From an uncultured Mediterranea sp. (GTDB lineage: Bacteria; Bacteroidota; Bacteroidia; Bacteroidales; Bacteroidaceae), in assembly GCA_945831575.1 (NCBI GenBank), contig CAMACX010000024.1, forward strand, positions 1 to 43,490: DNA of 43,490 nt. Reading direction: 5' to 3'. Shown piece by piece: positions 10,652-39,678 of this stretch (its first letter is position 1; each line of letters opens with the position of its first letter). The notes beneath the pieces are model-generated. The model made no database searches, was not told the DNA's origin, and saw only the letters and a program-made list of their open reading frames with translations. The translations under genes and the position numbers were made by a program.

Positions 10652-10681
10652 TGTAAGGGCGGAACATATTCCGCCCTTACA
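10652..10681. repeat. Perfect palindromic repeat, 13-bp arms
   Basis: TGTAAGGGCGGAA and TTCCGCCCTTACA are exact reverse complements around the 4-base loop CATA. The G+C-rich core in an A+T-rich setting looks like a dispersed palindromic (REP/MITE-like) element rather than a terminator, since no T-run follows on either strand. Confidence 0.75.
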
Positions 10682-10696
10682 GGTTAATCATAATAG

Positions 10697-10731
10697 TCAC
10701 TAGTCACTAATCATTTATCACTAATCACTAT
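10697..10731. repeat. Heptad array, family A (site A4)
   Basis: Five 7-bp units on the plus strand: TCACTAG, TCACTAA, TCATTTA, TCACTAA, TCACTAT. The same unit occurs in spacers near ruvB, znuA and purD. Here the last unit contains the stop codon of the short coding-like fragment at 10728-10775. Confidence 0.8.
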
Positions 10732-10775: not shown

Positions 10776-10808
10776 TTATGTGGCTAAACTTGCATATCGT
10801 AGAGGAGA

Positions 10809-10852
10809 GGTCAGCTTTCATTATATAATAGGTCAGCTTTACTTATATAATA
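10809..10852. repeat. 22-bp tandem duplication
   Basis: Two adjacent 22-bp copies (10809-10830 and 10831-10852), each starting GGTCAGCTTT and ending TTATATAATA, differ only at two adjacent bases. It is non-coding as far as can be seen, between the TonB receptor terminator and the gene remnants. Confidence 0.75.
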
Positions 10853-10867
10853 GGAATAGACCACGAC

Positions 10868-16363: not shown

Positions 16364-16522
16364 GTTACGCTAAAGTGAAACCCATTTGAACTCGATTTGA
16401 AGTCAATGAATCTCTAATTTTTCATCGAGTTCAAATCGAGTTCAAATTGAGTTCAAATCGACTTCAAATTGAGTTCAAATCGACTTCAAATCGAGTTCAT
16501 CCCCTAGTTACTTTAACGTAAC
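16364..16522. repeat. Long inverted repeat enclosing an 11-bp tandem array
   Basis: Six full copies of GAGTTCAAATC (third base G or C, last base C or T) run from 16427 to 16492, and a seventh is partial. Two inverted copies lie at 16385-16404. Outside them GTTACGCTAAAGT (16364-16376) pairs with ACTTTAACGTAAC (16510-16522) with one mismatch. The whole could fold into a hairpin with arms of roughly 40 bases. No open frame runs through it. It could be a MITE-like element or a structured 3' region. Confidence 0.8.
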
Positions 16523-22681: not shown

Positions 22682-22709
22682 GTTACAAGTTACGAGCTAC
22701 AAGCTACTA
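22682..22709. repeat. Heptad array, family B (site B2)
   Basis: Plus-strand units GTTACAA, GTTACGA, GCTACAA, GCTACTA. On the coding (minus) strand each carries TAA or TAG. The final unit contains the stop codon of the upstream lipoprotein gene, and the array runs through an A-tract into the flippase ATG. Confidence 0.85.
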
Positions 22710-24382: not shown

Positions 24383-24410
24383 TCACTAATCACTAAACAC
24401 TAATCACTAT
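24383..24410. repeat. Heptad array, family A (site A1)
   Basis: Plus-strand units TCACTAA, TCACTAA, ACACTAA, TCACTAT (a fifth, TCACTCC, is degenerate). On the coding strand the unit is TTAGTGA, with TAG and TGA. It fills the space between the deacetylase stop and the ruvB ATG. Confidence 0.85.
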
Positions 24411-24416
24411 TCACTC

Positions 24417-25082
24417 CTACAGCATCTTCATCTGATACCCCTCTTCGATAAAAAACTCGATGGCGCGGGGCAGGGCATATTGCAGGTTGCCGTTCTTCCA
24501 CGACTTGAGGGAGTCGTGGAAGGTGATGATGGAGCCGTTGCGCGTGTAGCGTAGCACGTTGGCCAGTACCTGTGGTCCACGCAGCTTCTTGCTGTAGTCG
24601 CGCGTCACGAGGTCCCACATCACGATACGGTAGCGCTTCTTCAGCGTGATGTATTGCGCCCAGCCCATATGTCCGTGTGGCGGACGGAAGAGTAAGGGGC
24701 GCAGCTGACGTTCAGTGCACTCCAAGCCGCACATCTGCTCCCTCATCAGGTCGTAGGCCTTCTCCGTATTCTCCAGGTAGCTGTAGGAGGTGAAATACTT
24801 GCGGCTGAATCCCCTGATATGGTTGAAGGTATGGTTGCCGATGCGGTGTCCCTGTTCCACTACTTGCCGGAACACCTCAGGATATTTGCTGATGTTGTCG
24901 CCCACCATGAAGAAGGTGGCCTTTACGCCGTAACGCTCCAACAGGTCGAGTACCCAAGGTGTCACCTCGGGGATAGGTCCATCATCAAATGTCAGATAGA
25001 CGGCCTTCTCCTCGGGGTTGACCCGCCACAGGGCACCCGGATAGAGGCGCCGAAGCCATTTTGAGGGTTGTTCAATCAGCAT
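24417..25082 (-). CDS. Polysaccharide deacetylase family (NodB-like) protein
   Basis: A 221-residue metal-dependent carbohydrate esterase, CE4 type. Motifs: TFDDGP (31-36), HTFNH (84-88), RPPHG (133-137), WDLVTRDYS (156-164) and TFHDS (187-191). It removes N- or O-acetyl groups from glycans such as peptidoglycan or surface sugars; the exact target is unknown. No signal peptide is clear, so it may act in the cytoplasm or be weakly membrane-linked. It lies between DUF2723 and ruvB genes. Confidence 0.88.
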   Translation of the reverse strand: MLIEQPSKWLRRLYPGALWRVNPEEKAVYLTFDDGPIPEVTPWVLDLLERYGVKATFFMVGDNISKYPEVFRQVVEQGHRIGNHTFNHIRGFSRKYFTSYSYLENTEKAYDLMREQMCGLECTERQLRPLLFRPPHGHMGWAQYITLKKRYRIVMWDLVTRDYSKKLRGPQVLANVLRYTRNGSIITFHDSLKSWKNGNLQYALPRAIEFFIEEGYQMKML

Positions 25083-25092
25083 CTTTTTTATA

Positions 25093-25134
25093 GTTACAAG
25101 CTACAAGCTACGAGTTACAAGCTACAAGCTACAA
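25093..25134. repeat. Heptad array, family B (site B1)
   Basis: Six units on the plus strand, GTTACAA, GCTACAA, GCTACGA, GTTACAA, GCTACAA, GCTACAA. The coding strand has TAA or TAG in each. It ends in an A-rich tract right before the deacetylase ATG. A worn family A-like stretch (CTAATTA, CTAATCA; 25143-25157) lies beside it in the same spacer. Confidence 0.85.
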
Positions 25135-25166
25135 GTAGGTGTCTAATTACTAATCATTAAATTAAC

Positions 25167-28100
25167 TCACTTCAGTCGTTCGATGTAGAGGTCGTATTGC
25201 TGGTTGAGCTTCTCCTCGTAGGTGGGGGCCAGGGTCGAATGGTACTCCTTCATCATCTTCACCTCGGCATCGAGCACCGCCCAATGGTATTCAAACTCGT
25301 GGGTGGAAATCATGAAGCGGCTGTCATCCAGGCTGATGTAGAAGTTCATGTACTCCAGCGCCTTGTCGGCCAACACCTTCATGATGGCATCACCCTGCTC
25401 CATCTCACCCAGTTGGTAGTAGGCACGCGCCATCTGGGCCGCACCATTCTGCCAGTCGTAGGGTACGTTGTAGGCTGGGATGACTTTCTCGGCATACTGT
25501 AGTGCCTCGCGGGCCTTCTCCGTCTGTCCTTCGGTCATCAGCTGCTGGATGAGCTGAGAGAAGACGCGTCGGTGCGTGTAGCACATGCGCATGGCATTCT
25601 CATCGATGTAGATGCCCGGCTTATCAATGCCGCCGAAGCGGAACTTGTGCATGAGGTTGTCGTACATCTTTTCCGAGTCAATCTTCACCCCTGTCTTGTT
25701 GGTGTCAAAAGGTGTGAATCGGTAGGCCAATCCCTCCTGGACGAAGTGGTTCTGCATACCGAGTTGCTCGTCCGAGCCTACGCTGATAGCCATGTAGATG
25801 GGGCGTTCCCAGTTGGCCTCGGCCAGCATTTCCAGCATCATCAGGTCCTTCTTGTAGAGGGCGCGTTTACCTTTGAGGGAGATGTGCATGTAGTCGGGGA
25901 TGGAGTCACCCGGGATGATCATGCCGCTGCGGCGTACCGCTTCCTTGTCCACCTTGAGCACGATGCTGTCTGTGGGGATCACCTTCAGTTCCTCGTCCTT
26001 GGCGTTGCGCACCCAGTGCTTCAAGATGTTCTGAAGTTCGTAGGGGTTCTCACCAAATTCGCGCTTCACATTGACCATCGCTTCAGGATTTCCGTCCAGA
26101 CTCTCCTTCTCAGCCTGAGCATAGAGCGCGTCGATGCTCTTCTTGTACTCCGGCTTGACGGGAATGTATTCATTGGTGCCTTCCACGTACTCCATGCGGT
26201 CCCAGGAGATGGGGAGCGAGGGGCTGTCGTAGGCCGGGCGCTTCATCTGGTCGATGTACCAGTCGGTCTGCAGGTAGGAGAGGTTGCAAGTGCGGGTATC
26301 GGTGCGGAAACTTTCCGTCTCCTGGTTGTACCACAGGGGGAAGGTATCGTTGTCGCCGTTGGTGTAGATAATGGGGTTGCCCGTCTCCTGGAGCGACATC
26401 ATGTAGTTCTGTCCGAAGTCACGGCAGAGATAACGGTCGCTGCGGTCGTGGTCATCCCACGTCTGCGAGGCCATCTGGATGGGTACGAGCAAGCAAATCA
26501 GCACGGTTACCGAGGCCAGGACCACACCCGGGCCGTCCTGCTTCCCGGCAGCTTTCTTCTGCAGCAGCCGCTGCACGCCCTCCATCACACCGGCCACACC
26601 CATGCCAATCCAGATGGCGAAGGCGTAGAACGATCCTGCATAGGCATAGTCGCGTTCACGCGGCTGACTCGGTGTCTGGTTCAGGTAGAGCACGATGGCG
26701 ATACCCGTCATGAAGAAAAGGAAGAAGACCACCCAGAACTGCTGCACACCCACGGCATGTTCCACGGTCTTGCCCTCAGCATTGGTCGTCGTGCGTGTAC
26801 GGTAAGCTTGCCACAGCAGGCCGATGATGCCCAGCAGCAGGGGGAGGCAGTAGAAGACGTTGCGTCCCTTGTTCTCTCGCAGCTCCGTGGGCAGCTTACT
26901 CTGGTCGCCCACCAGCATCTGGTCGATGAAGTCGATGCCCGTAATCCAGTTGCCATGCTCTATCTCACCGCTACCTTGTATATCATTCTGTCGTCCGGCA
27001 AAGTTCCACATGAAGTAGCGCCAGTACATCCAGTTGAGCTGATAGGAGAAGAAGAACTTGATGTTCTCCCACTGCGTGGGGATGTTCACCATCACCATGC
27101 TGCCGCACTGGTCGTAGGGTACATCCGTTCCCTTGATGTCCTGCCAAGCCTGGTACTCGCGCACATGGAGCGAACTGTACATCCGGGGGAAGAGCATATT
27201 CTGCGCATACTCATACTCCACGCGGCCCGGTATCTCGATGTACTGGTCCTTCTCCTCGGGGCTGGCCTTCTCCTTGCGGATCCACTTCGTACCGTTGTAC
27301 TTCACGCGGGGTACGCAGTAGCCATCCTCCACGTCGAGCGCCACCTTCGAGCTGAAGGCAGGTCCATAGAAGAGCGGACGCGTGCCGTACTGTTCACGTC
27401 CCAGGTATTCGCCCAGAGTGAAGATATCCTCCGGAGAATTCTGATCCATCGGCGTATTGGCCGTGGAGCGGATGACAATCAAGGCATACGAGGAGTAACC
27501 TACCACGATGAGCAGCGTGCAAAGCAGGGCGGTGTTCAGCGTACGTGCCGATACCCGCCAGCTCTCTTTCAGCTTCTTCTGTACCGAAGGGGAGAGGTAC
27601 AGCCACAGGGCGGCAATCACCAGCATACCGATGACTACCGATGTAGCACCATGGCCATAGAAGGGAATACCCAGCAAGGCAATGGCCAGCACAAACGACA
27701 GGCTCATACGCATCGGGTCGCGTTCGGTATAGCTTTCGTACGCCCCCCAGATTAAGGCAGTGGCCAGGCAGAGGATATAGACTATCACGCCTGTATTGAA
27801 AGGCATTCCCCAGGAGTTGACGAAGAGCAGTTCAAACCAACCGCCCACCTTTACAATGCCCGGTACAATGCCATAGAGTACGGCAGCCACCAGTACGCCG
27901 CTACCAGCAAGGGCCAATAAGGAACCTTTGGCTGTGGCTTGCGGCACCTTCTTGTAGTAATAGACCAGCACAATAGCCGGCAGGCAGAGCAAGTTGAGCA
28001 GGTGAACGCCGATACTCAGACCCGTCAGATAAGCTATCAGCACTAGCCAGCGGTCGCTATGTGGCTCATCGGCCACATCTTCCCACTTCAAGATCAGCCA

Positions 28101-28574
28101 GAAGACCACTGCGGTAAAGAGTGATGAGAAGGCATACACCTCTCCCTCGACGGCGCTGAACCAGAAGGTGTCGCTGAACGTATAGGCCAGCGCACCTACC
28201 ACACCACTTCCCATGGTGGTAATCAACTGGGCATTGGTCATCTCCTTGCTCTCCCACACCAACAGCTTGCGCACCAGGTGGGTAATACTCCAAAAGAGGA
28301 ACAGAATACAGGCCGCACTCATCAGCGCACTCATGTAGTTCACCATCTTAGCCACGGTGGTGACATCGGATGCCAACTGTGAGAAGAGGTTGGCTACCAA
28401 CATGAAGAAAGGTGCGCCGGGGGGGTGTCCTACTTCCAATTTATAGCCGGTGGTGATAAACTCGGGACAGTCCCAAAAGCTGGCGGTAGGTTCTATTGTC
28501 AAGCAATAAACCATGGCTGCAATCAGGAAGACAATCCACCCCGTCACGTTATTTACGGTGTTGTACTTTTTCAT
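25167..28574 (-). CDS. DUF2723 membrane protein, TMEM260-like probable glycosyltransferase
   Basis: A 1135-residue protein with many membrane helices in the first half (about residues 10-370, more near 565-690) and a large soluble C-terminal part (about 700-1135) with TPR-like helices near the end (EKAREALQYAEKVIP, YYQLGEMEQGDAIM). The segment FWDCPEFITTGYKLEVGHPP (about 34-53) is the DUF2723 signature; its acidic residues follow the first helix as in GT-C glycosyltransferases. Human TMEM260 of this family is a protein O-mannosyltransferase, so a similar role on periplasmic proteins is possible but unproven. First gene of a seven-gene run. A GTG at 28583 is a less likely start. Confidence 0.85.
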   Translation of the reverse strand: MKKYNTVNNVTGWIVFLIAAMVYCLTIEPTASFWDCPEFITTGYKLEVGHPPGAPFFMLVANLFSQLASDVTTVAKMVNYMSALMSAACILFLFWSITHLVRKLLVWESKEMTNAQLITTMGSGVVGALAYTFSDTFWFSAVEGEVYAFSSLFTAVVFWLILKWEDVADEPHSDRWLVLIAYLTGLSIGVHLLNLLCLPAIVLVYYYKKVPQATAKGSLLALAGSGVLVAAVLYGIVPGIVKVGGWFELLFVNSWGMPFNTGVIVYILCLATALIWGAYESYTERDPMRMSLSFVLAIALLGIPFYGHGATSVVIGMLVIAALWLYLSPSVQKKLKESWRVSARTLNTALLCTLLIVVGYSSYALIVIRSTANTPMDQNSPEDIFTLGEYLGREQYGTRPLFYGPAFSSKVALDVEDGYCVPRVKYNGTKWIRKEKASPEEKDQYIEIPGRVEYEYAQNMLFPRMYSSLHVREYQAWQDIKGTDVPYDQCGSMVMVNIPTQWENIKFFFSYQLNWMYWRYFMWNFAGRQNDIQGSGEIEHGNWITGIDFIDQMLVGDQSKLPTELRENKGRNVFYCLPLLLGIIGLLWQAYRTRTTTNAEGKTVEHAVGVQQFWVVFFLFFMTGIAIVLYLNQTPSQPRERDYAYAGSFYAFAIWIGMGVAGVMEGVQRLLQKKAAGKQDGPGVVLASVTVLICLLVPIQMASQTWDDHDRSDRYLCRDFGQNYMMSLQETGNPIIYTNGDNDTFPLWYNQETESFRTDTRTCNLSYLQTDWYIDQMKRPAYDSPSLPISWDRMEYVEGTNEYIPVKPEYKKSIDALYAQAEKESLDGNPEAMVNVKREFGENPYELQNILKHWVRNAKDEELKVIPTDSIVLKVDKEAVRRSGMIIPGDSIPDYMHISLKGKRALYKKDLMMLEMLAEANWERPIYMAISVGSDEQLGMQNHFVQEGLAYRFTPFDTNKTGVKIDSEKMYDNLMHKFRFGGIDKPGIYIDENAMRMCYTHRRVFSQLIQQLMTEGQTEKAREALQYAEKVIPAYNVPYDWQNGAAQMARAYYQLGEMEQGDAIMKVLADKALEYMNFYISLDDSRFMISTHEFEYHWAVLDAEVKMMKEYHSTLAPTYEEKLNQQYDLYIERLK

Positions 28575-28817
28575 CGCTGTCACTTATCCTAATGTTTTTT
28601 AATCGTTAATATCAGTCACATTCAAGCTGCGAAGATAGCGATTTGTTGTCTAATTCCATGGGAAAAGTGCCAAATATTTAGGATAGATTAGGAATGATGC
28701 TGAATTGTATCATGATTTGCTTATTTATTATTAGTTTATTTCTCTCATTTCGCCTACTTTTGTACGTTCTTAAGCGTGATTACCATGTAGAAACAATAAT
28801 TATAAACAATAGATAAA
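28575..28817. promoter_or_regulatory. Divergent control region of DUF2723 and esterase genes
   Basis: A+T-rich 243-base spacer. Plus-strand -7 box TACTTTTG at 28755-28762 serves the sialate O-acetylesterase, with only a weak -33 (TTAG at 28731-28734). On the minus strand TATCTTCG at 28630-28637 is one base from TAnnTTTG and may serve the long run starting with DUF2723. Confidence 0.5.
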
Positions 28818-30269
28818 ATGAATAAGAAGTTTTGTTTTTTACTCGTAGTGCTCTGTCTGAGCGCTGCCTCTTACTTAAATGCTCAATTCAGGCTCTCCTC
28901 GCTGGTGAGCGACGGTATGGTCTTGCAGCAGCAGACCAATGTTCGTCTCTGGGGTGCCGCTGATGCAGGAAAAGAAATCAAGGTCGTTGCTTCTTGGGAT
29001 GCACAGAACAGCCATGCAGCTCGTACTGACCGTGACGGGCGTTGGGTGATTACCTTGCCCACTCCTGAGGCATCGTTCACTCCGTGGGAGATTTCCTTTT
29101 TTGATGGGAAAAAGCCATTGCTTACCATCAAGGATGTGCTGGTGGGTGAAGTATGGCTGGCCGGCGGACAGAGCAATATGCAGATGCCGCTCAAGGGATT
29201 TCCTGGTTGCTGCGTGGAGAATGGGCTGGATGAGGCCATTGCCGCGCATCGTACGGACGGCGTGCGCATGTTCAATGTGCCGATGAAGCAGGAGATGCAA
29301 CCGCAGGAGTGGTGCGGTGGACGGTGGATGAATACCTCCAGTTTTACGGACATGATGGAGTTCAGTGCCACGGCGTGGTTTTTCGCTTCACAGCTGCGTA
29401 ATGCGCTGCATGTGCCTGTAGGTATCGTCAACATTGCCTATGGTGGTACGCGTGTAGAGGGGTGGTTGCCTCGTGAGATTCTTGAGACCTATCCTGATGT
29501 CAGCCTCGATCCCAAGGAGATGGAGAAGCTGACCGACTATCATCGTCCTATGTTGACCTACAATGCCATGTTCGTGCCTGCCCATCTTTATACGGTGAAG
29601 GGCATCATCTGGTATCAAGGATGTAGCAACGTAGGTGCTCATGCCCAGTATGCCGACCGCCTTACTACCATGGTAGAGCATTGGCGTAAGGAGTTGGCCC
29701 TGGGTGAGATACCGTTCTATATGGTGGAGATAGCTCCCTATCGTTACAACGACCAGACGAATGGTACCGCAGGAGCTTTGCTTCGTGAAGCACAGCAAGA
29801 GGCAGCCAGCCGCATACCCCATAGTGGGTTGGTAAGCACCAATGACCTGGTGGACGACTTTGAGCAATTCAATATCCATCCTCGCAAGAAGAGTTTTGTA
29901 GGTCATCGCCTCTGCTATATGGCGCTCAACAAGACCTACGGTTTCCATTCTGTTTGCTGCGAAGGGCCCCACTACACCAAGTGGCAGCCCAAGGGCAATG
30001 AGGCATGGGTCAGCTTCGACCGACTGGACATGGGCATTTGTCGAAACTATGACATCCGTGGTTTTGAGGTAGCTGGTGAGGATAAGGTATTCTATCCGGC
30101 AGATAAGGTATGGCTCCATTGGCAAACCAACGAGGTGGTGGTGTCGTCAGAGAAGGTTGCTGCTCCCGTGGCTGTGCGCTACGGCTTCCGTGACTTCCTT
30201 CCAGGAACCTTGATTGGAGGCAACCAACTGCCCGCCTTCCCCTTCCGATCCGACCGGTGGGAAGAGTAG
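28818..30269 (+). CDS. Sialate O-acetylesterase, secreted
   Basis: A 483-residue SGNH-type esterase with a signal peptide (cut after NAQ, about residue 23). Catalytic Ser119 in GGQSNMQMPL and His354 in FNIHPRKK, with a nearby Asp (346/347), as in the sialate O-acetylesterase family. A second conserved block is IIWYQGCSNV (263-272). It removes O-acetyl groups from sialic acid or from plant glycans; members vary. It opens host sialoglycans to sialidases, though no sialidase is in the window. Its stop codon is one base from the stop of the convergent znuC gene. Confidence 0.88.
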   Translation: MNKKFCFLLVVLCLSAASYLNAQFRLSSLVSDGMVLQQQTNVRLWGAADAGKEIKVVASWDAQNSHAARTDRDGRWVITLPTPEASFTPWEISFFDGKKPLLTIKDVLVGEVWLAGGQSNMQMPLKGFPGCCVENGLDEAIAAHRTDGVRMFNVPMKQEMQPQEWCGGRWMNTSSFTDMMEFSATAWFFASQLRNALHVPVGIVNIAYGGTRVEGWLPREILETYPDVSLDPKEMEKLTDYHRPMLTYNAMFVPAHLYTVKGIIWYQGCSNVGAHAQYADRLTTMVEHWRKELALGEIPFYMVEIAPYRYNDQTNGTAGALLREAQQEAASRIPHSGLVSTNDLVDDFEQFNIHPRKKSFVGHRLCYMALNKTYGFHSVCCEGPHYTKWQPKGNEAWVSFDRLDMGICRNYDIRGFEVAGEDKVFYPADKVWLHWQTNEVVVSSEKVAAPVAVRYGFRDFLPGTLIGGNQLPAFPFRSDRWEE

Positions 30270-30270
30270 G

Positions 30271-30960
30271 TCAGTCGTTTAAGGTAATCCCCTCTGTGGT
30301 TGGATAGTAGGTTAACTCTCTATCCACCACAGCCAAGGAGCGGGCATGGCGAAGCAGGGAGTCGGTGTCGTGGCTCACCATCACGATGGCGCATCGTACG
30401 TTCAGTTCATCGAGCAGTTCATAGAGACGGGCCTCGGTGCGCTTGTCGATGTAGGTCCCTGGTTCATCCAGTACGAGCACTTCAGGATTGGAGACTACGG
30501 CACGGCCTAGTAATACCCGTTGCAGCTCTCCTCCGCTCAAAGCACCTATTGGCCGTTGTTCCATCCCCTCCAACCCCATGCGGGCAATCACTTCCTTGGC
30601 TCGCTTCTGTTCATCATGATTCCATCTAGATAGGAGACCTGTCTCGGCAATGAGGCCTGAGAGGACGGTGTCCCATACCGTAATCGGGAACTTCTTGTCG
30701 ATGTGGCTATATTGCGGCAGGTAGCCTAGGCGTAAGGCTCTCTTCTCTTCAACCTGCCCTTGAGGCGAATGGAATAGAATCTCTCCCTCTTGCGGCTCCA
30801 ACAGACCGAGGATGCACTTCAGCAGCGTGGTCTTTCCACCCCCGTTTGGCCCCACAATCCCAAGAAAGTCGTTCGGAAAGATGGAGAGGTTGACATGGTG
30901 CAACACCTGTTGCCGGCCATAGCCTGCAGTGAGGTTCTTGATTTCTATCAGGGGGGTCAT
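30271..30960 (-). CDS. znuC: Metal ABC transporter ATP-binding protein, ZnuC-like
   Basis: A 229-residue ABC ATPase. Walker A GPNGGGKTT (near 36-44), Q-loop PQYSHIDKKFPITVWDTV (typical of the zinc/manganese group), signature LSGGELQR (near 140-147), Walker B VLVLDEP, and His in VSHD. The ATG overlaps the znuA stop (ATGA), which settles the start and implies coupled translation. It would power import with ZnuA, but no permease gene (znuB) is found in the window. Confidence 0.88.
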   Translation of the reverse strand: MTPLIEIKNLTAGYGRQQVLHHVNLSIFPNDFLGIVGPNGGGKTTLLKCILGLLEPQEGEILFHSPQGQVEEKRALRLGYLPQYSHIDKKFPITVWDTVLSGLIAETGLLSRWNHDEQKRAKEVIARMGLEGMEQRPIGALSGGELQRVLLGRAVVSNPEVLVLDEPGTYIDKRTEARLYELLDELNVRCAIVMVSHDTDSLLRHARSLAVVDRELTYYPTTEGITLND

Positions 30961-31925
30961 GGTGCGGTAGAGGTTAGGGTAAGAGCTTTGGCTGTGGCAA
31001 TCAGCTCCTCTTCCCAATGATAGGAGAGTGGATTGATATGGATGATGTGCGCTCCCGTCTGCTTGGCGATGGCCTCAGCATTCCGGCTATCAAACTCCGG
31101 TTGGATGAAGATAACTTTGACATGGTTTGCCTTGCAGAGTTCGTTGAGTTCCTTCATGCGGGCAGCTGAAGGCTCCTTGCCATCGGTCTCGATGGCGATC
31201 TGCGTCAAGCCATAGTCGCGGGCAAAGTAGGAGAGTGCCGGATGATAAATCATGAAAGCTTCTGATGCCTCGGGCTTGGAAAGCCACTCTCTGATCAGGC
31301 TGTCGCATCGGTCAATCCGTTGGCAGAGTGTATCATAGCGCAGGCGGTAGCTCTCCGCATGAGGTTTGTCGAGAGTAATCATGGCTTTCAGGATATTGCC
31401 CGCGATAATTCGTGCGTTGGCAGGTGAGTTCCACACGTGGGGCTCTACACCTCCTTCAGCATCTGAAGTGGTATGGTGTTCCTCTTCCTCGTAATTTCCG
31501 GGCTTATCATCATGATGGTGGTGATGCGCATGGTGGCTGTCATAAATCAAGTCAATACCTTCTGACATGTTCATGAAGGGTACATGGGGGGCATTCTCCG
31601 CCAACCGAGAGTTCCATATTAACTCATACCCTACATAGCCAATGCGCAAGCAGGCTTTGCTTTCGGCCAGCTGAGCCAGCTGACGAGGCGTGGGGTCGTA
31701 TGTCTCCGGGCTGGCTCCATTGGGTACCAGCGTCTCCACTTTCCAGTCAGGTCCGGCAATTGCCTCAGTAAAATAGCGTAGAGGCTCAATGCTGACGGTT
31801 ATCACCTGTTGGTCAGCCTTGCTCTCCCCATCTCTTTTGGAGCTGCAACTGCTCCACGTCAGTCCTACCATCAGACCCACAAGTAGCATCAAGGCTACGT
31901 TGATTATCTTTGCATTCCTAATCAT
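30957..31925 (-). CDS. znuA: Zinc ABC transporter substrate-binding lipoprotein, ZnuA-like
   Basis: A 322-residue lipoprotein with Cys27 in LTWSSC. It binds metal outside the inner membrane. There is a His-rich loop (131-138, seven His of eight residues, more at 150-151), typical of zinc-binding ZnuA. Likely site residues are His163 in EPHVW, His228 in MIYHPALSYF and Asp279 in PEFDSRNA. A longer frame to a GTG at 31967 lies inside a heptad array, so the ATG at 31925 was chosen. Confidence 0.9.
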   Translation of the reverse strand: MIRNAKIINVALMLLVGLMVGLTWSSCSSKRDGESKADQQVITVSIEPLRYFTEAIAGPDWKVETLVPNGASPETYDPTPRQLAQLAESKACLRIGYVGYELIWNSRLAENAPHVPFMNMSEGIDLIYDSHHAHHHHHDDKPGNYEEEEHHTTSDAEGGVEPHVWNSPANARIIAGNILKAMITLDKPHAESYRLRYDTLCQRIDRCDSLIREWLSKPEASEAFMIYHPALSYFARDYGLTQIAIETDGKEPSAARMKELNELCKANHVKVIFIQPEFDSRNAEAIAKQTGAHIIHINPLSYHWEEELIATAKALTLTSTAP

Positions 31926-31963
31926 CCTATTATCATTGTTTTGAAGTTTGCAATCCGCATCAA

Positions 31964-31998
31964 TCACTAAACACTAATCACTAAACACTAATCACTAA
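31964..31998. repeat. Heptad array, family A (site A3)
   Basis: Five plus-strand units alternating TCACTAA and ACACTAA. On the coding strand each contains TAG (TTAGTGA or TTAGTGT). It lies between the YqaA/DedA stop (32006) and znuA. Confidence 0.9.
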
Positions 31999-32005
31999 AA
32001 AATGT

Positions 32006-32473
32006 TCACATCACCAACTGGAGGGTCTCCTGCATGGCCCATAACAAGACGATGTATCTCAGCAGCTTACCGAGCATCATAGAGAGCGTAGTCACCGTAA
32101 TGTTGCTTCGCATAAAGCCCAGGGCTACAGCCAGTACGCCCCCCACGAATGGCAGGAAGGCGAAGAATGCCATCATCGCACCCTTACCTTGCAGGAAAAG
32201 CTGCATCCGGTCCACCTTATCCTGCTTGACGTGCAGGTAGCGTTCAATCCAGTCCGTTCGTCCTGCCCATCCCATGCCGTAGCAGGTCATGCCTCCTAAC
32301 GTGTTGCCTAAGGTAGCCAGCACGAGGCACGCCATCGGATTCAGTCCTAACTTGACTAGCGTAAGGAGTACAATCTCCGAGCTGAATGGAATCAGGCTCC
32401 CGGCTAAAAAAGCAGATAGAAACAGTCCCGGATAGCCCCAGTCAATCAGCCATTGTACCAATATATCAATCAT
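32006..32473 (-). CDS. YqaA/DedA-type small membrane protein
   Basis: A 155-residue inner-membrane protein, with a VTT/SNARE-associated-like fold: DWGYPGLFLSAFLAGSLIPFSSEIVLLTLV near the start and GNTLGGMTCYGMG (about 56-68). Short for DedA, normal for YqaA. DedA relatives move lipids or help proton homeostasis; this one is not known. The ATG overlaps the stop of the upstream membrane gene (ATGA). Confidence 0.85.
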   Translation of the reverse strand: MIDILVQWLIDWGYPGLFLSAFLAGSLIPFSSEIVLLTLVKLGLNPMACLVLATLGNTLGGMTCYGMGWAGRTDWIERYLHVKQDKVDRMQLFLQGKGAMMAFFAFLPFVGGVLAVALGFMRSNITVTTLSMMLGKLLRYIVLLWAMQETLQLVM

Positions 32474-33423
32474 TGTTGCCAGATATTATAAATAAACAAA
32501 ATCACCAGTCCTATCAACGCACACAGGAAGAAAATGTTGCTGCTCTTGCTGTGTGTCAGCACGAACAGGTGGCCAGCCAAGATGCTCACGCCAATCAGCA
32601 GCGACGCAATCCAATAAGCACAGTAAGCCGGAAATAGAAATACTCCAGCAAAAAGCACTGCATTCAGCAGAATCAGGAACTGCAGGTAGGCTCTCGTACG
32701 CAATTTGTCGTCAAGACTAGCCAGCCAGCAATGGGCGGCACTGACCACGAAGAGCAGGGCTAGATAAATCAAAGCCCCGACACTCCAAGGTTGCAACACC
32801 TGGATGGAATCACTTGCAGGCACCCACTTTGCCGCCAACTCCGGAAAGAGTGTCCATTGCTGCTGCCATACCACGTAACCGAAGAGGAACCAATAAGGGA
32901 GCAACAAGCCCACCATGGAGGCAAAAAAGCTCCGAAGCGAGAGCGACTGAAACATGTAACTCCCAATCCAATAGATTGGCACCACATAGATCAGTGGAGG
33001 AAACAACAGACTCCCTACCCCAAGGCAGACAAAAGTATGAAACAGCATACCTGAGGGCTGCGTCTGCTGATAACTGCTAAAGAGGAAGAAGAAGGAGGCC
33101 AGTAGGGTTGCCGCAGCCAGGTTACCTGCATGCAGCTGATGCAACATGGGACAAACAGATACCAAAAGAAAATAGATGGCGGTCTGTACCGAAGCCCTCA
33201 TGCGGATGAGTGCAAACGTGTTGTTGAGTACGATAAGGAAATAGCCGGTAGCTCCACACAGCAAAAGGCTGATGATACGGTTGATCCACGAGGAAGACCC
33301 CTCCGATTCCGGCAAGAGGAAGTCGGTAGTCATCTGGCAGATAGCCGATATCAAGATAGCAGCGGGCAGGGTCCACCTGCCCGCTGTAATCGTATTTTGC
33401 AATCTCCGGCTACGGTTTATCAT
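32470..33423 (-). CDS. Hypothetical multi-pass membrane protein
   Basis: A 317-residue protein with about nine hydrophobic helices and short loops; not recognised at family level. It shows a short basic N-terminus (MINRSRRLQ) and no catalytic motif. It overlaps the stop of purD and the start of the YqaA gene by ATGA each, so it is translated with them. Location between purine synthesis and a lipid/transport-like gene gives no clear function. Confidence 0.75.
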
Positions 33424-34694
33424 AGGTCAAATCCGATGTCGCGGCGGAAATATTTCTTCTCGAAGTCAATCAGTTGTGCAGCCTTGAAGCAGTGGCTCAG
33501 GGCATCAGCCTTATCGTTACCATAGGAGCAGACAGCGATTACGCGTCCGCCGTTGGTCACGATGCCCTGCTCGTTGCGAGCCGTTCCGGCGTGGAAGAGA
33601 ATGCTTCCGGTAGCTGTTGCTTCATCCAGCCCACTCATCAGCTTCCCTTTCTCGTAGGCTTCGGGATAGCCCCCGCTCACCAGCATGACACAGGTCGCTG
33701 TGCGCTCGTCAATCTCCAGCGTACGCTGATCCAGGTCGCCGGCATCCACACCCTCCATCAAGTCAACCAGGTCGCTCTTGATGCGCAGCATGACACTCTC
33801 CGTCTCGGGATCACCCATGCGTACATTGTATTCAATCACCATCGGGTGACCTTCTACATTGATCAAACCCAGGAAGATGAAGCCCTTGTAGAGGATGCCC
33901 TCCTCCTTCAGACCGTTGACGGTAGGTTCGATGATACGGGTACGCACCTCTTCCATGAAGCGTTCGTCGGCAAACGGCACAGGGCTTACGCTGCCCATAC
34001 CGCCGGTGTTCAGCCCCTTGTCGCCTTCTCCGATACGCTTGTAGTCCTTCGCTACAGGCAATACCTTATAGTGTGTGCCATCCGTCATGACAAAGACTGA
34101 GCACTCAATGCCGCTCAGGAACTCTTCAATCACCACCGTAGCACTGGCGCTGCCGAACATGCCACCCAGCATCTCCTTCAGCTCCTTCTGAGCCTCCTCC
34201 AGGGTGGGCAGAATCAACACGCCCTTGCCGGCACAGAGTCCATCGGCCTTCAGTACATAGGGTGCCTTGAGCGTAGCGAGGAAGTCGAGTCCCTCCTGCA
34301 GATTGGCCGCTGTGATGCTCTTGTAGCGTGCCGTAGGGATGCCGTGGCGCATCATGAATTCCTTGGCAAACTCCTTGCTGCCCTCCATCTGTGCTCCTTG
34401 GGCCGTAGGGCCGATGATGGCGATGTGGCGGGTAGCCTCATCTGCCTTGAAGGTGTCATAGATACCCTTGACCAGCGGGTCCTCGGGACCTACCACGATC
34501 ATGTCAATGCCTTTTTCCAAGGCAAATGCTTTGAGAGCAGGGAAGTCGGTTGCCTTGATGGGTACGTTCTCACCCTGAGCCTCCGTTCCGGCATTTCCCG
34601 GAGCGATATAGAGTTTTTCTACACGTTTACTTTGGGCGATTTTCCATGCCAAGGCATGTTCGCGGCCGCCCGAGCCTAACAGTAATATCTTCAT
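33420..34694 (-). CDS. purD: Phosphoribosylamine-glycine ligase (GARS)
   Basis: A 424-residue ATP-grasp enzyme that joins glycine to 5-phosphoribosylamine in the second step of purine synthesis. N-domain [13 protein letters not shown] (8-20), ATP-grasp [11 protein letters not shown] (about 148-158), and [10 protein letters not shown] (about 232-241), which is a purD signature, plus [12 protein letters not shown] near 289-300 for metal and ATP. Normal length. A family A heptad array precedes it; it follows DPP4. Confidence 0.97.
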
Positions 34695-34699
34695 TTCTT

Positions 34700-34731
34700 T
34701 AAGTGATTAGTGATTAGTGTTTAGTGATTAG
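34700..34731. repeat. Heptad array, family A (site A2)
   Basis: Plus-strand units TAAGTGA, TTAGTGA, TTAGTGT, TTAGTGA and a partial TTAG. It is inverted relative to sites A1 and A3, so on the coding strand each unit carries TAA instead of TAG. It fills the spacer between DPP4 and purD. Confidence 0.85.
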
Positions 34732-34742
34732 CCCTTTCCCTG

Positions 34743-36920
34743 TCAGAGGTAATCCTGGAAGTAGCGTGTGATCTTCTCGTGCAGATGCACGCGGTCTCTG
34801 CCCATCACGTTGTGCTTATGACCGGGGTAGATGAAGAGGTCGGGATAGGTACGTGCGTCGATGCAGGCCTTCATGAAGGAGAGGGTATGCTGCGGTACGC
34901 AGGTATCGTCGTGGTCATCGTGGATGATGAGCAGGTGCCCCTTCAGCTGTCCGGCCAGATTCTTCAGGTTGGTCTGTTTGTACCCTTCGGGATTGCTTTG
35001 GGGCGTGTCCATGTAGCGTTCGCCATACATCACCTCATAGTAGCTCCAGTCGATGACGGGACCTCCGGCCACACCTACCTTGAAGATTTCGGGATAACGC
35101 AGTACGAGGGCGGTGGTCATGTGTCCACCAAAGCTCCATCCGTGTACACCGATGCGGTTGCCATCCACGTAGGGCAGGCTCTGGAGGAACTCCGCACCCT
35201 TCACCTGGTCCTTGCCCTCCTCGATGCCGAGGTGGCGGAAGGTGGCATTCTCAAACTCTCGTCCACGGTTATCGCTGCCCCGGTTGTCGAGGCTGAAGAC
35301 GATGTAACCCAGGTTGGCCATGTAGAGGTTCCAGCCTCGTGCGCCATGGAGCCAGCCGTTGTTCACCAGCTGGGCGTGAGGGCCACCATAGACATAGACG
35401 ATGGCGGGATATTTCTTGCTCGGGTCGAAGTTGGCCGGCTTAATCAGGTGATAGTAGAGGTCGGTCGTGCCATCGGCAGCCTTGATGGTACCCGTCTCCA
35501 CGGTCGGCATGGCGAAGTCCGCATAGGGATTGGCAGCCTTCAGCAGCTGTTGCTTTTTGTTGCCCGTGGTGGCCAGCAGCTCGATGTTGCGGGGTTGGTC
35601 TGGGGTGCTGTAGCTGTCGATGACGTAGGTACCCGAGGTGGAGAGCTGGGCATGGTGTACGCCCTCGCCGTTGTCGATGCGTGTCACTTTGCCGTTGGCT
35701 ACGCTTACCTTATATATATTACTCTGCAGCGGACTCTCCTTGGTGGCCGTGAAGACAATCTCCTTCTTCTTGGCGTTGAAGCCCAATACCTCCTGCACCA
35801 GCCAATCGCCTGAGGTGAGTTGCTTTCCAGCCACCTCGGTGGTATTGGCCTGCAGCTTCTTGAGGTCCATCAGCCAGAGGTGGTTGAAGCCATCGCGTTG
35901 GCTCTGGTAGATGAAGAGGTTGCTGTCCCAGGGGAGGAAGCAGATGGGGTTGGAAGGTTCTACGTACTTGGGGTGGCTCTCCTCGTAGAGTACATGCTGC
36001 AGCGTGCCTGTGGTGGCATCATACTGGCAGAGCTTGGCATGGTTCTGGTCGCGGTTCAGCTCGATGAGGAAGAGGCTCTGCTCATCGGGACTCCAGGAGA
36101 TGTTGGTGAAGTAGCGGTCGGTGGGGTCACCTGTCTGTAGGTAGAGTGTCTGCTGCGTAGCAGGGTTGTAGATACCCACCTGCACCTTGTGGCTCGTCAT
36201 GCCGGCCATGGGGTAGCGGATGGCGTTCACCTCACCGATGCGGGCTGTGATATCGACGAGCGGATACTCCGTCACCATGCTCTCGTCCATGCGGTAGAAG
36301 GCCAGGAGCGTACCCTTAGGGCTCCAGAAGGTACCTTTTGAGATACCAAACTCGTTGCGGTGTACGCTCTGCCCGCACACTACGCCGTTCGGCTCATCGG
36401 TCACGCGTCGGCCATTGACGTAGAGGTTGTTGCCTATGGTGTAGGCCAGGTTGCGACTGTCGGTCTCGTAGTCGAAGTTGGCAGCCGGCTCCTTGGGCAG
36501 GTCGTCGCGCATCTCCACCTGGCCGGTGCTCCAGTTGTAGATGGCATACTTCTGTGCCCGTGGCAGCAGGGCGATGAACTGCTTTGCCCAGGGGGTGCGG
36601 ATGTTGTTGAGGTGCTGCATCGGCTTGAGTCCTGCCTCTTTCAGCGCCTTGTTGACCTGCTCCAGGGTGAAGAGCTGGTTCTCCTTACCCGACAGCGGGT
36701 CGATGGCCACTACACACTCCTCCTTCGGACGGATGCAGAGGTCGCCCCACCATTGCAGGCCGTAGATGTTCTCAGCGAAACGGTAAGTCTCTCCACCTGG
36801 AATCAGGTCTTCCAGTGTGGGCAGGGGGCGTTGCTCTTGTGCCATGATGGTAGAATGGAATAGAGTACATGCAGCCATTGCGACCATGCAGAGGCTGCGC
36901 TTCATCAAGTGGTTAATCAT
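34743..36920 (-). CDS. Dipeptidyl peptidase IV (S9B)
   Basis: A 725-residue secreted serine exopeptidase that cuts X-Pro (and X-Ala) dipeptides. Signal peptide cut near MAQ (about 28). Beta-propeller first, with the YRMDESMV segment (about 206-213) that holds the substrate N-terminus. Catalytic Ser596 (GWSFGGH), Asp671 (HDDHDDTC) and His701 (PGHKHN). The start at 36920 overlaps the rlmL stop (ATGA); a Met at 36905 would also be possible. Together with DPP7 it suggests growth on peptides. Confidence 0.95.
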   Translation of the reverse strand: MINHLMKRSLCMVAMAACTLFHSTIMAQEQRPLPTLEDLIPGGETYRFAENIYGLQWWGDLCIRPKEECVVAIDPLSGKENQLFTLEQVNKALKEAGLKPMQHLNNIRTPWAKQFIALLPRAQKYAIYNWSTGQVEMRDDLPKEPAANFDYETDSRNLAYTIGNNLYVNGRRVTDEPNGVVCGQSVHRNEFGISKGTFWSPKGTLLAFYRMDESMVTEYPLVDITARIGEVNAIRYPMAGMTSHKVQVGIYNPATQQTLYLQTGDPTDRYFTNISWSPDEQSLFLIELNRDQNHAKLCQYDATTGTLQHVLYEESHPKYVEPSNPICFLPWDSNLFIYQSQRDGFNHLWLMDLKKLQANTTEVAGKQLTSGDWLVQEVLGFNAKKKEIVFTATKESPLQSNIYKVSVANGKVTRIDNGEGVHHAQLSTSGTYVIDSYSTPDQPRNIELLATTGNKKQQLLKAANPYADFAMPTVETGTIKAADGTTDLYYHLIKPANFDPSKKYPAIVYVYGGPHAQLVNNGWLHGARGWNLYMANLGYIVFSLDNRGSDNRGREFENATFRHLGIEEGKDQVKGAEFLQSLPYVDGNRIGVHGWSFGGHMTTALVLRYPEIFKVGVAGGPVIDWSYYEVMYGERYMDTPQSNPEGYKQTNLKNLAGQLKGHLLIIHDDHDDTCVPQHTLSFMKACIDARTYPDLFIYPGHKHNVMGRDRVHLHEKITRYFQDYL

Positions 36921-38395
36921 TGTTGTTCTCCTTTCTCGCGGGCTTCGCGACGTTTGCGTTCGGGGTACGATTCGCCCGAGCGGGGTTTAAACTCTTTCTT
37001 TTCAAACTTCTTCTCATAGGGTTTCCGTCCCTCACGTGGAGGAAATTTCCGTTTCCCCTCTTTATCGTCCGGGGCAAAGCGCTTCTCTCTGCGGGGAGCG
37101 AAGCCCTCCTTTTCCCCTCTGGGGGTGAACTCCTTGCGGCCTTCGCCTTGGGTGAAGAACTGCTTGCGGCCCTCACGTGAGGCAAATTCCTTCCGCTTGC
37201 CTTTGCTGGCTGGGCGCTGTTCGGGAGCCTTGTCCAGCTTCTCGCCCTCTTCGCGGAACTGCTTGTACTTGCCCTCGAAGAGCTCGTATTGCCGCAGCTG
37301 GCACTCCAGGGCACCGTTCATGAGCGGGATTTTCTTGGTAGGCTTCAGCCCTATCTGGTCGAAGCACTCGTCGCGGTAGGAGAGAATCCAGGCGTTCCCA
37401 CCGGCAAAAGCATGCTTCAGCCGCTCGCCGATCATCTGGTAGAGCCCCAGCAGGTCGGGGGCAGAGATGCGTTCGCCATAAGGGGGATTGGTCACGATGA
37501 TGGCCTTCTCCGCCGGTTGCTCAAAGGCCTGGAAGGGTTGCACGTTCAGCGTGATGCACTTCGAGAGCCCGGCAGCCTTCACGTTGCGCGTGGCTACCTC
37601 GATGGCTCGTGGATTGTTGTCGTAGCCATAGATGTGGTGGGTGAACTCCCGCTCGTTGCTGTCGTCGTTGTAAATCTCGTCCAGCAGGTCGGCATCAAAG
37701 TCGGGCCAATGCTCAAAGGCATAACCTTGGCGGAAGACGCCGGGGGCGATGTTGCGTGCAATGAGGGCCGCCTCGATGGGCAGTGTACCCGATCCGCACA
37801 TGGGGTCGATGAAGTCCGTCTCGCCTCGCCATCCCGTCATGAGGATGATGCCAGCCGCCAGTACCTCGTTGAGGGGAGCTTCCAGCGCTTCCTGCCGGTA
37901 GCCACGGCGGTGGAGCGACTCTCCGCTGGCATCCAGCGAGAGGGTACACTTTGTCTCGGCGATGTGGATGTTGACGAGCATGTCAGGTCCTACCACCCGT
38001 ACGCCCGGGCGCTTGCCTTCGCGCTCCATGAAGTAGTCGGCAATGGCATCCTTCACGCGATAGGCTACAAACTTCGAGTGGCGGAACTCGTTGCTGAACA
38101 CCACCTCATCCACAGCGAAGGTCTGTGCCGTGCCCATGTAGTTTTCCCAGGGGATGGCCTTGACCTGTTCGTACACCTCATCCGGATTGGTGGCTGTGAA
38201 GTGGCTGATGGGCTTCAGAATACGGATGGCCGTGCGCAGGCAGAAGTTTGCTTTGTACATCATCCGCTTGTCACCTGTAAAGGCCACCATGCGTCTGCCT
38301 TTCTCGATGTTGTTGGCACCCAGTTCGGTCAGTTCCTGAGCCAGTACCTCTTCGAGACCCTCCAGAGTCTTGGCTATCATTTCAAATTCTTGCAT
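36917..38395 (-). CDS. THUMP-domain rRNA methyltransferase (RlmL-like) with basic repeat tail
   Basis: A 492-residue S-adenosylmethionine-dependent RNA methyltransferase. THUMP domain (about 45-155), then DPMCGSGT (197-204) and NPPYGER (303-309), the N2-guanine MTase motif. It is probably RlmL-like (23S rRNA G2445), but other members act on tRNA. Residues about 378-492 form a low-complexity basic tail with repeated GRKxF units, as if for RNA binding. ATGA overlap with DPP4. Confidence 0.9.
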   Translation of the reverse strand: MQEFEMIAKTLEGLEEVLAQELTELGANNIEKGRRMVAFTGDKRMMYKANFCLRTAIRILKPISHFTATNPDEVYEQVKAIPWENYMGTAQTFAVDEVVFSNEFRHSKFVAYRVKDAIADYFMEREGKRPGVRVVGPDMLVNIHIAETKCTLSLDASGESLHRRGYRQEALEAPLNEVLAAGIILMTGWRGETDFIDPMCGSGTLPIEAALIARNIAPGVFRQGYAFEHWPDFDADLLDEIYNDDSNEREFTHHIYGYDNNPRAIEVATRNVKAAGLSKCITLNVQPFQAFEQPAEKAIIVTNPPYGERISAPDLLGLYQMIGERLKHAFAGGNAWILSYRDECFDQIGLKPTKKIPLMNGALECQLRQYELFEGKYKQFREEGEKLDKAPEQRPASKGKRKEFASREGRKQFFTQGEGRKEFTPRGEKEGFAPRREKRFAPDDKEGKRKFPPREGRKPYEKKFEKKEFKPRSGESYPERKRREAREKGEQQ

Positions 38396-38408
38396 ATATT
38401 TTTTTTCA

Positions 38409-38436
38409 GTTACGAGTTACGAGCTACAAGCTACGG
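38409..38436. repeat. Heptad array, family B (site B3)
   Basis: Plus-strand units GTTACGA, GTTACGA, GCTACAA, GCTACGG. The coding strand carries a stop codon in each unit, then an A-run, and then the rlmL-like ATG at 38395. Confidence 0.85.
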
Positions 38437-38464
38437 GTTATTGTTAGTTTTAAGTTTTTACATC

Positions 38465-39458: not shown

Positions 39459-39592
39459 TAATAGCCTCCAAAAATAACTTCTTTAAATCGCACAATTTTT
39501 ATCGGATATAGAGGAGTAATCGGAAATTGTCTGGGATGCTTTCATTTCATTGGTAATTTGTTATCAGCAGTAAGAAAAACATTTTTCCTCGG

Positions 39593-39612
39593 GATGAAAA
39601 TCGTTTTTCATC
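39593..39612. repeat. Short inverted repeat
   Basis: GATGAAAA (39593-39600) and TTTTCATC (39605-39612) pair around TCGT. It is A/T-rich and could be a small hairpin in the region between cysE and the downstream island. Confidence 0.5.
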
Positions 39613-39678
39613 GGGGTGAAAGCAATTGACAAATTAACGCATCTCGTACATTATCATGTTTTGGGTTGACACATGAAA

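Follow-up and report, generated by a model that had tools for sequence, protein, structure and literature searches.

The stretch of DNA analyzed here (43,490 nucleotides of contig CAMACX010000024.1 from an uncultured Mediterranea sp.; hereinafter the window is this whole stretch) contains, in seven spacers between genes, arrays of tandem 7-bp units that fall into two families, family A with the unit TTAGTGA and family B with the unit TYGTARC. The seven arrays and their period had been reported in a preliminary description from the letters alone, and both are borne out by our reading of the sequence and by Tandem Repeats Finder, which calls period-7 repeats at 10697-10730, 22684-22707, 24383-24415, 25095-25135, 31965-31999, 34702-34731 and 38408-38440. 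Several other features of that description are likewise reproduced: by our gene calls, which come from our own script and not from a standard gene finder, all seven arrays lie between same-strand genes; all seven close the three reading frames on the coding (minus) strand; in two cases (22682 and 24383), the stop codon of the preceding gene is inside the array; and each of the three family B arrays of the window is followed by an A-rich tract and then by ATG. The names ruvB, purD and deacetylase that we use for genes in the window are presumptive. A scan of the window against Rfam at gathering scores gave no match, and a tRNA scan found no tRNA.

The genome of the window (G000) was compared with the sister genomes G152, G151 and G154, the nearest among those compared, in which the protein that we take to be RuvB is, respectively, 98%, 95% and 94% identical to that of the window genome; for the purD-like gene, the named records that come closest belong to assemblies of uncultured Mediterranea sp., at 91% and 89% identity. 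The first array, a degenerate family A array of the TTAGTGA type on the minus strand (10697..10731), had been placed in a decayed region but turns out to lie, like the others, in a same-strand spacer, of 544 bp. The family B array at 22682..22709 (minus strand), which takes in the upstream gene's stop codon and has an A-rich tail before ATG, corresponds to a longer B array in G151 and to a spacer without an array in G152. Between the deacetylase-like gene and the presumed ruvB, a family A array (24383..24410, minus strand) is matched in G151 by the same array minus one 7-bp unit (the spacer measures 37 bp here and 30 bp in G151), and G152 and G154 have no array. The next spacer holds a composite on the minus strand, in which a two-unit remnant of family A (25143..25156) forms the 5' portion and a family B array (25090..25138) the 3' portion; at the orthologous position, G152 has a longer A array without B, and G151 has only a 16-bp spacer. 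The family A array in the same-strand spacer at 31964..31998 (minus strand) is replaced by a reverse B array in G152 and by 25 bp without an array in G154. The array at 34700..34731 belongs to family A but is reverse to the genes (plus strand), with 3 nt between the end of its scanned span and the start of the gene that we take to be purD; its counterpart in G152 is a shorter A array. Finally, the family B array at 38408..38440 (minus strand), which precedes an A-rich tract and ATG, faces an array-free spacer of 10 bp in G152.

The same two families recur in the rest of the genome. Our sample consists of the window and 40 further stretches, 843,490 bp in all or 29% of 2,888,586 bp; 32 of the 40 follow contig order, and eight (one each from C3, C4 and C6 and five from C5) were picked with matches in view. 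The G152 sample comprises 62 stretches (1,168,205 bp, about 47% of the genome), of which those on C19, C20, C27 and C34 were placed on known matches, those on C35 and C36 were chosen for their matches, and two surround the ruvB locus. Because some stretches were picked for matches, the densities and the count of arrays common to both genomes lean upward. In a strict period scan of the window genome sample, 34 period-7 arrays were intergenic and coding DNA had none; when the intergenic DNA was resampled 5 times with a first-order Markov model, the mean number was 0.0. All 34 have consensus units that are variants of A or B, and 7 is the commonest of the periods 4 to 12 in intergenic DNA, with 34 of 58 array calls. 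In a separate, looser scan of the same sample for the family units, which covered 613 spacers, A was found in 38, B in 26 and both in 8. Across the whole genome, there are 261 three-unit matches to A and 119 to B; these and all other three-unit counts given here include overlapping matches. The confinement of the arrays to spacers is complete in our own sample; in relatives, 4 of 63 period-7 arrays in G152 and 2 of 20 in G031 lie inside called genes.

Family A shows a pronounced preference for spacers between same-strand genes (36 of 38, with two convergent and none divergent) compared with the background of 455 spacers of at least 30 bp (298 same-strand, 68 convergent and 89 divergent); both the same-strand excess (p = 2e-5) and the absence from divergent spacers (p = 3e-4) are significant. 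The same-strand preference is also seen for family A in G152 (42 same-strand, 5 convergent and 1 divergent, n = 48; p = 0.008 against a background of 451/630), and all 18 intergenic period-7 arrays in 400 kb of G031 occupy same-strand spacers (background, 146 of 202). The preference does not extend with significance to family B, with 20 same-strand, 3 convergent and 3 divergent spacers (n = 26; p = 0.15) and 22, 2 and 4, respectively, in G152.

The function initially proposed for the arrays is that of translation insulators, whose stops in each frame would catch read-through ribosomes between cistrons. The closure of three frames on the coding strand by 7/7 window arrays is compatible with this idea, as are the preference of family A for same-strand spacers and the closure of all three frames by 16/16 forward and 17/19 reverse A arrays; 38-nt control stretches do so in 709 of 5000 cases. 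However, TTAGTGA has stops on both strands, so that family A is unable to test the idea and selection for stops is not needed to account for them. Family B, which closes all three frames in 8 of 9 forward but 1 of 10 reverse arrays, is the informative case, and its orientation is balanced. In same-strand spacers, the strict scan gives 9 forward and 10 reverse B arrays (16 and 19 for A), the matched stretches of G152, for which orientations and distances were counted with a scan looser than the strict one, give 13 and 14 (24 and 19 for A), and over the two genomes 22 forward B arrays stand against 24 reverse ones (p = 0.88), the latter being free of stops. Furthermore, the T and A of TAR in the B units are preserved in 37/39 and 39/39 forward units and in 31/32 and 32/32 reverse units; TA is equally well kept in the stop-free orientation, which gives no indication that conservation acts on the stop codon. 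The statement that every unit carries a stop on the coding strand applies to the seven window arrays but not to family B in general. In addition, 14 of the 29 array-bearing spacers of the window genome have G152 orthologs without an array. A barrier of stop codons is therefore rejected on the strength of the balanced orientation of family B, placed stop-free in 24 of 46 cases, and of the equal conservation of its unit in both orientations, and we consider an insulator function highly unlikely. The A-rich leader reported before ATG is present at the three window B arrays, but the tail is also found where B faces the stop codon of the next gene, with an A fraction of 0.43 compared with 0.50 before starts, and so belongs at least in part to the B repeat itself.

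Comparison with G152 reveals turnover of the arrays within conserved gene order. We compared 170 orthologous spacers, 133 of them same-strand (median protein identity, 92%); among these 133, arrays are present in both genomes in 15, only in the window genome in 14, only in G152 in 2 and in neither in 102. At the 14 spacers with an array only in the window genome, the G152 gaps range from -4 to 231 bp, the shortest being -4, 10 and 11 bp, and the array-bearing spacers are longer than their partners by a median of 49 bp, compared with 1 bp in array-free pairs (p = 0.02). The families can also replace each other: the spacer at C24:31926 carries A here and a reverse B in G152, the one at C5:4240 carries B here and A in G152, and at C26:16654 the orientation of the array is opposite in the two genomes. 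A length difference of a single unit is seen at one spacer shared with G151 (37 and 30 bp). The number of three-unit A matches falls from 261 in the window genome to 184 in G152, 25 in G151 and 0 in G154.

The two families are positioned differently with respect to the adjacent genes. For family A, the distance to a gene is within 10 nt at the 5' end in 31 of 38 arrays and at the 3' end in 16 of 38, and family B shows the opposite tendency (3' end, 14 of 25; 5' end, 3 of 25; one more B array is at the end of a stretch). The matched stretches of G152 yield a similar picture, with 38 of 49 A arrays close at the 5' end vs 14 of 49 at the 3' end, and 15 of 33 B arrays close at the 3' end vs 2 of 33 at the 5' end. 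In a plain test of which end is nearer, family B is strongly polarized (21 vs 4, p = 0.0009) and family A is not significantly so (24 vs 14, p = 0.14), so that the polarity of family A is clear only by the within-10-nt measure. The gene edge that is faced can be of either kind: the 5' side of A faces 19 starts and 19 stops, and the 3' side of B faces 12 starts and 13 stops. The G-minus-C skew, taken from the nearer edge inward, was also evaluated for polarity, with a mixed result. In the window genome, G exceeds C in 8 of 11 arrays that lie at starts (p = 0.11) and, among those at stops, in 10 of 14 (p = 0.18); the corresponding values are 11/16 (p = 0.21) and 20/31 (p = 0.04) in G152 and 6/6 (p = 0.03) and 8/11 (p = 0.23) in G031. 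The array-free edges of the window genome lean the same way at starts (210 with G>C and 114 with C>G of 359) and the opposite way at stops (109 and 165 of 295); the B units are nearly devoid of skew, and short spacers filled by an array offer no clear edge.

The proximity to gene edges could be taken to indicate that the arrays are bound, ahead of start codons, by a regulator that recognizes RNA or DNA. A translational regulator has been suggested in the case of the TAACTGA arrays that are discussed below (MacGregor 2015, PMC4679880), which provide a published precedent for start-proximal heptamers. Where the 5' side of A faces a start, it is indeed at most 10 nt away in 16 of 19 arrays. On the whole, we regard regulator sites as improbable: stops are faced as often as starts, A and B stand in for each other at the two orthologous spacers described above, and the sister genome G154, which is 81% complete, has no three-unit A match at all.

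Where both families occur in one spacer, A is followed by B on the same strand in 8 of 8 cases in the window genome and in 5 of 6 cases in G152, with C4:27762 as the exception; of these six, two correspond to composite loci of the window genome. At three loci, the inverted repeat CCACAGATT/AATCTGTGG lies between A and B. By eye, the ends of the composites are T-rich and A-rich. As a separate observation, the inverted repeat AACCACAGATT...AATCTGTGGTT occupies the center between the A and B arrays at L038 14610-14830, L044 8058-8301 and L046 7664-7814, and a similar CACAGAG inverted repeat precedes the purD-like gene in L073. Mobile elements of the miniature inverted-repeat type are defined by terminal inverted repeats and a target-site duplication. 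A composite mobile element with the ends T6AG...CTA6, consisting of A, the central CCACAGATT inverted repeat and B and moved by a putative enzyme, would fit the order, the A-center-B copies at three loci and the short array-free gaps at orthologous spacers. Such an element nevertheless seems a poor candidate, given that A is the sole family in 30 of its 38 spacers and B in 18 of its 26, that at the two orthologous composites the species differ in the segment separating A from B, and that the order is reversed in one of the six G152 cases.

In relatives, the arrays occur as inverted pairs of fixed polarity. Counted by hand among the matches listed, A units within 150 bp of each other are arranged forward-then-reverse in 14 of 14 pairs (8 in G031, 4 in G018 and 2 in G009), and B units reverse-then-forward in 22 of 22 pairs (12 in G016, 5 in G007 and one each in G006, G011, G014, G015 and G025). 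By a 12-of-14 rule, an inverted partner is found for 0 of 38 arrays in the window genome, 4 of 56 in G152 and 7 of 18 in the 400-kb sample of G031; the reversed-spacer controls (1, 2 and 6, respectively) carry no information, since reversing the letters of TTAGTGA yields a rotation of the same unit, and this applies equally to the backwards control of the three-unit A match counts. A second test detects one spacer with an inverted partner in the window genome, L056. In the window genome, the arrays retain the arm polarity without the pairing. These observations point to the possibility that the arrays are remnants of inverted-repeat elements, namely heptamer hairpins spanning the spacer that remain two-armed in relatives and are reduced to single or mismatched arms here, the hairpin having been the original function, for example, in mRNA processing or the coupling of cistrons. 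The fixed polarity of the pairs in relatives, the partners in G031 and the retention of the same arm polarity by A and B in the window genome speak for such a history, as do the strong RNA folds of two inverted-pair spacers that were picked by eye (L188, of the A type, z = -9.35; L195, with a different unit, z = -4.43). However, inverted partners are nearly absent from the window genome and infrequent in G152, and the four of the seven window spacers that were folded form no stable hairpin (z = -1.22, +0.95, +1.39 and +1.92), which leaves a hairpin or terminator role in the window unsupported and makes this origin of the arrays unlikely in our estimate. Repetitive extragenic palindromic sequences and bacterial interspersed mosaic elements are defined by each copy being a palindrome that forms a stem-loop. 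The arrays described here differ from repeats of this type in that none of the 38 has an inverted partner by the 12-of-14 rule and the folds of the four window spacers are weak.

The composition of the arrays differs between close relatives. The variant unit TTAATGA accounts for 20 of 113 in-register units in the window genome, where it is present in 16 of 38 A arrays, and for 0 of 138 in G152 (p = 4e-8). TTAATGA and TTAGTGT occur together in 2 of 38 A arrays, a weak result (p = 0.03) as a test for subfamilies. Matches to A were found in 20 of 37 genus members, including the window genome, at 1 to 371 overlapping matches; of 61 genomes, 15 have matches to B. A set of 80 named loci surrounding the purD-like gene totals 557,835 bp and, judging from the record titles, comes almost entirely from Bacteroidales, a few titles naming other groups. 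In this set, 7 is again the commonest short period, with 18 of 27 arrays of period 4-12, coding DNA being included in this count; other units seen in these loci are AATTGTC, AATTCAT, ATCATAA and more. Separately, G013 contains 318 matches, with at most 3 mismatches, to tripled AGTCAAT, the mirror of TAACTGA, and so likely has a dominant heptamer of its own.

On balance, we favor the interpretation that these are heptamer repeats that are resized by slippage, spread between spacers by copying and tolerated where they are least harmful. Under this interpretation, the 7-bp tandem units would grow and shrink through replication slippage. The earlier suggestion of slippage is in line with the 7-bp step at the locus shared with G151 (37 vs 30 bp), although most length differences between A arrays of G000 and G152 are not multiples of 7. 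Slippage alone does not carry a unit to unlinked loci. The units are likely to spread by copying between gene spacers, a step to which the existence of only two families, the composite order and the lineage-specific unit variants point. Persistence mainly between same-strand genes would reflect purifying selection, with the least harm probably done there, and the stop codons in the arrays would therefore be incidental. If this interpretation is right, about 190 spacers of the genome hold A or B (extrapolated from 56 in the 29% sample, which leans upward), and the filler of spacers turns over between sister species while the flanking gene order stays; it would also bear on the annotation of leaders and promoters and on comparative analysis of spacers, and would remove the stop codons as the reason for the arrays.

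Several observations weigh against this interpretation. Arrays recur at the same orthologous spacers far more often than expected (15 in both genomes vs about 3.7 from the margins, p = 3e-10); hence some array sites are inherited or favored, and part of the excess may stem from the choice of stretches. The gap differences in the 11 A/A pairs are 0, 16, 49, 57, -9, -15, -19 and larger, mostly not multiples of 7, so that further changes besides unit steps also occur. The window genome has fewer single copies of TTAGTGA than G152 does (24.9 vs 47.1 per Mb), and those of TTAATGA are similarly frequent in the two genomes (75.9 vs 73.6 per Mb), which keeps a mutational shift in play as a rival to copying between loci; moreover, one G152 spacer (the partner of C2:54611) holds TTAATGA outside the register count. 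The stronger tendency of family A than of family B to shun divergent and favor same-strand spacers (36/38 vs 20/26) argues against plain tolerance, which would be expected to affect the two families equally. For the spreading step, there is no enzyme, target duplication or intermediate in hand, no formal search for these having been made. Lastly, slippage by itself would hardly be expected to produce the regularity of the edge polarity and of the inverted pairs in relatives.

We also put forward, as doubtful, a more speculative model. Bacteroides gene edges might carry directional heptamer modules that, read inward from a start or a stop, are mostly TTAGTGA or GYTACRA and not the complement, and that are copied from spacer to spacer by a putative process acting in trans, through which each lineage would renew its unit across the genome. 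With the same module at both edges, the whole spacer would become a self-adjusting hairpin that pairs after any 7-bp slip and brings the upstream stop beside the next start. If true, this would represent an undescribed kind of fast-evolving bacterial intergenic satellite.

Dispersed arrays of heptamers are familiar from the short tandemly repeated repetitive (STRR) heptanucleotides of cyanobacteria. The closest published kind are the TAACTGA direct repeats of marine Beggiatoaceae, Cyanobacteria and five Bacteroidetes (MacGregor 2015, PMC4679880), which are also counted in the Thiomargarita genome paper, where MacGregor's proposal is mentioned (PMC4853749). According to MacGregor's description (PMC4679880), the TAACTGA repeats and the window arrays are both tandem heptamers that are mostly intergenic, often lie before starts or over the upstream stop, and provide three-frame stops in one orientation (as do 16/16 forward A and 8/9 forward B arrays here); both are distributed patchily between relatives, some of which have shorter, repeat-free spacers. 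They differ in that the window genome has 0 matches to tripled TAACTGA with at most 3 mismatches, in that the TAACTGA repeats, mostly start-oriented in that account, contrast with the lack of a start bias here (16 forward and 19 reverse for A, 9 and 10 for B), and in the presence here of two unit families with order and edge polarity. Apart from this comparison, G058, a genome from the same order, contains 137 overlapping matches to tripled TAACTGA and, judged by these letters, is likely a further Bacteroidales case of the MacGregor repeat.

According to citing accounts (PMC4679880, PMC4692102), Mrazek et al. 2007 identified 7-bp units as the top class of long repeats in most genomes and proposed slippage. 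The arrays share with such long simple sequence repeats of heptamers the occurrence of tandem 7-bp units beyond chance (34 vs a mean of 0.0) and the location mainly outside reading frames (0/34 in coding DNA), whereas the edge polarity and the composite order are absent from these citing accounts. The GGGAATC and GGGGA(C/T)T repeats of Xanthomonas and Nostoc (Rehm et al. 2015, PMC4692102) resemble the window families as genome-wide degenerate heptamers, mostly of about four units in Xanthomonas, but are G-rich quadruplex formers, which the window units are not. The heptanucleotide GTGATTA of Helicobacter pylori (van Belkum et al., as cited in PMC4692102) is a rotation of the family A unit and, in that citation, a single reported example; among the matches listed in a search of the literature for the unit letters, this bare 7-mer was the only one. 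Among the papers listed in searches for spacer heptamers of Bacteroides or Bacteroidetes, none deals with A or B, judged by title and abstract; subscription papers lay outside the reach of these searches, so that they are no proof of absence. We conclude that the window arrays are a new form of heptameric simple sequence repeats, with an edge polarity and a composite order.

The window contains additional repeats of other kinds. A palindrome with the perfect arms GGGCGGAA...TTCCGCCC (10652-10681) lies 15 nt from the first family A array; it has 2 matches in the 843 kb sampled here and 30 in 1.17 Mb of G152 (in L199, L202, L206 and others), which suggests a further dispersed element that has multiplied in one lineage. 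A spacer of 360 bp holds an 11-bp tandem array of ATCGAGTTCAA with 6.9 copies (16424-16499), near which a partly inverted copy was recognized by eye, and 22-bp tandem repeats of two copies each are present at 10808-10854 and 39574-39621.

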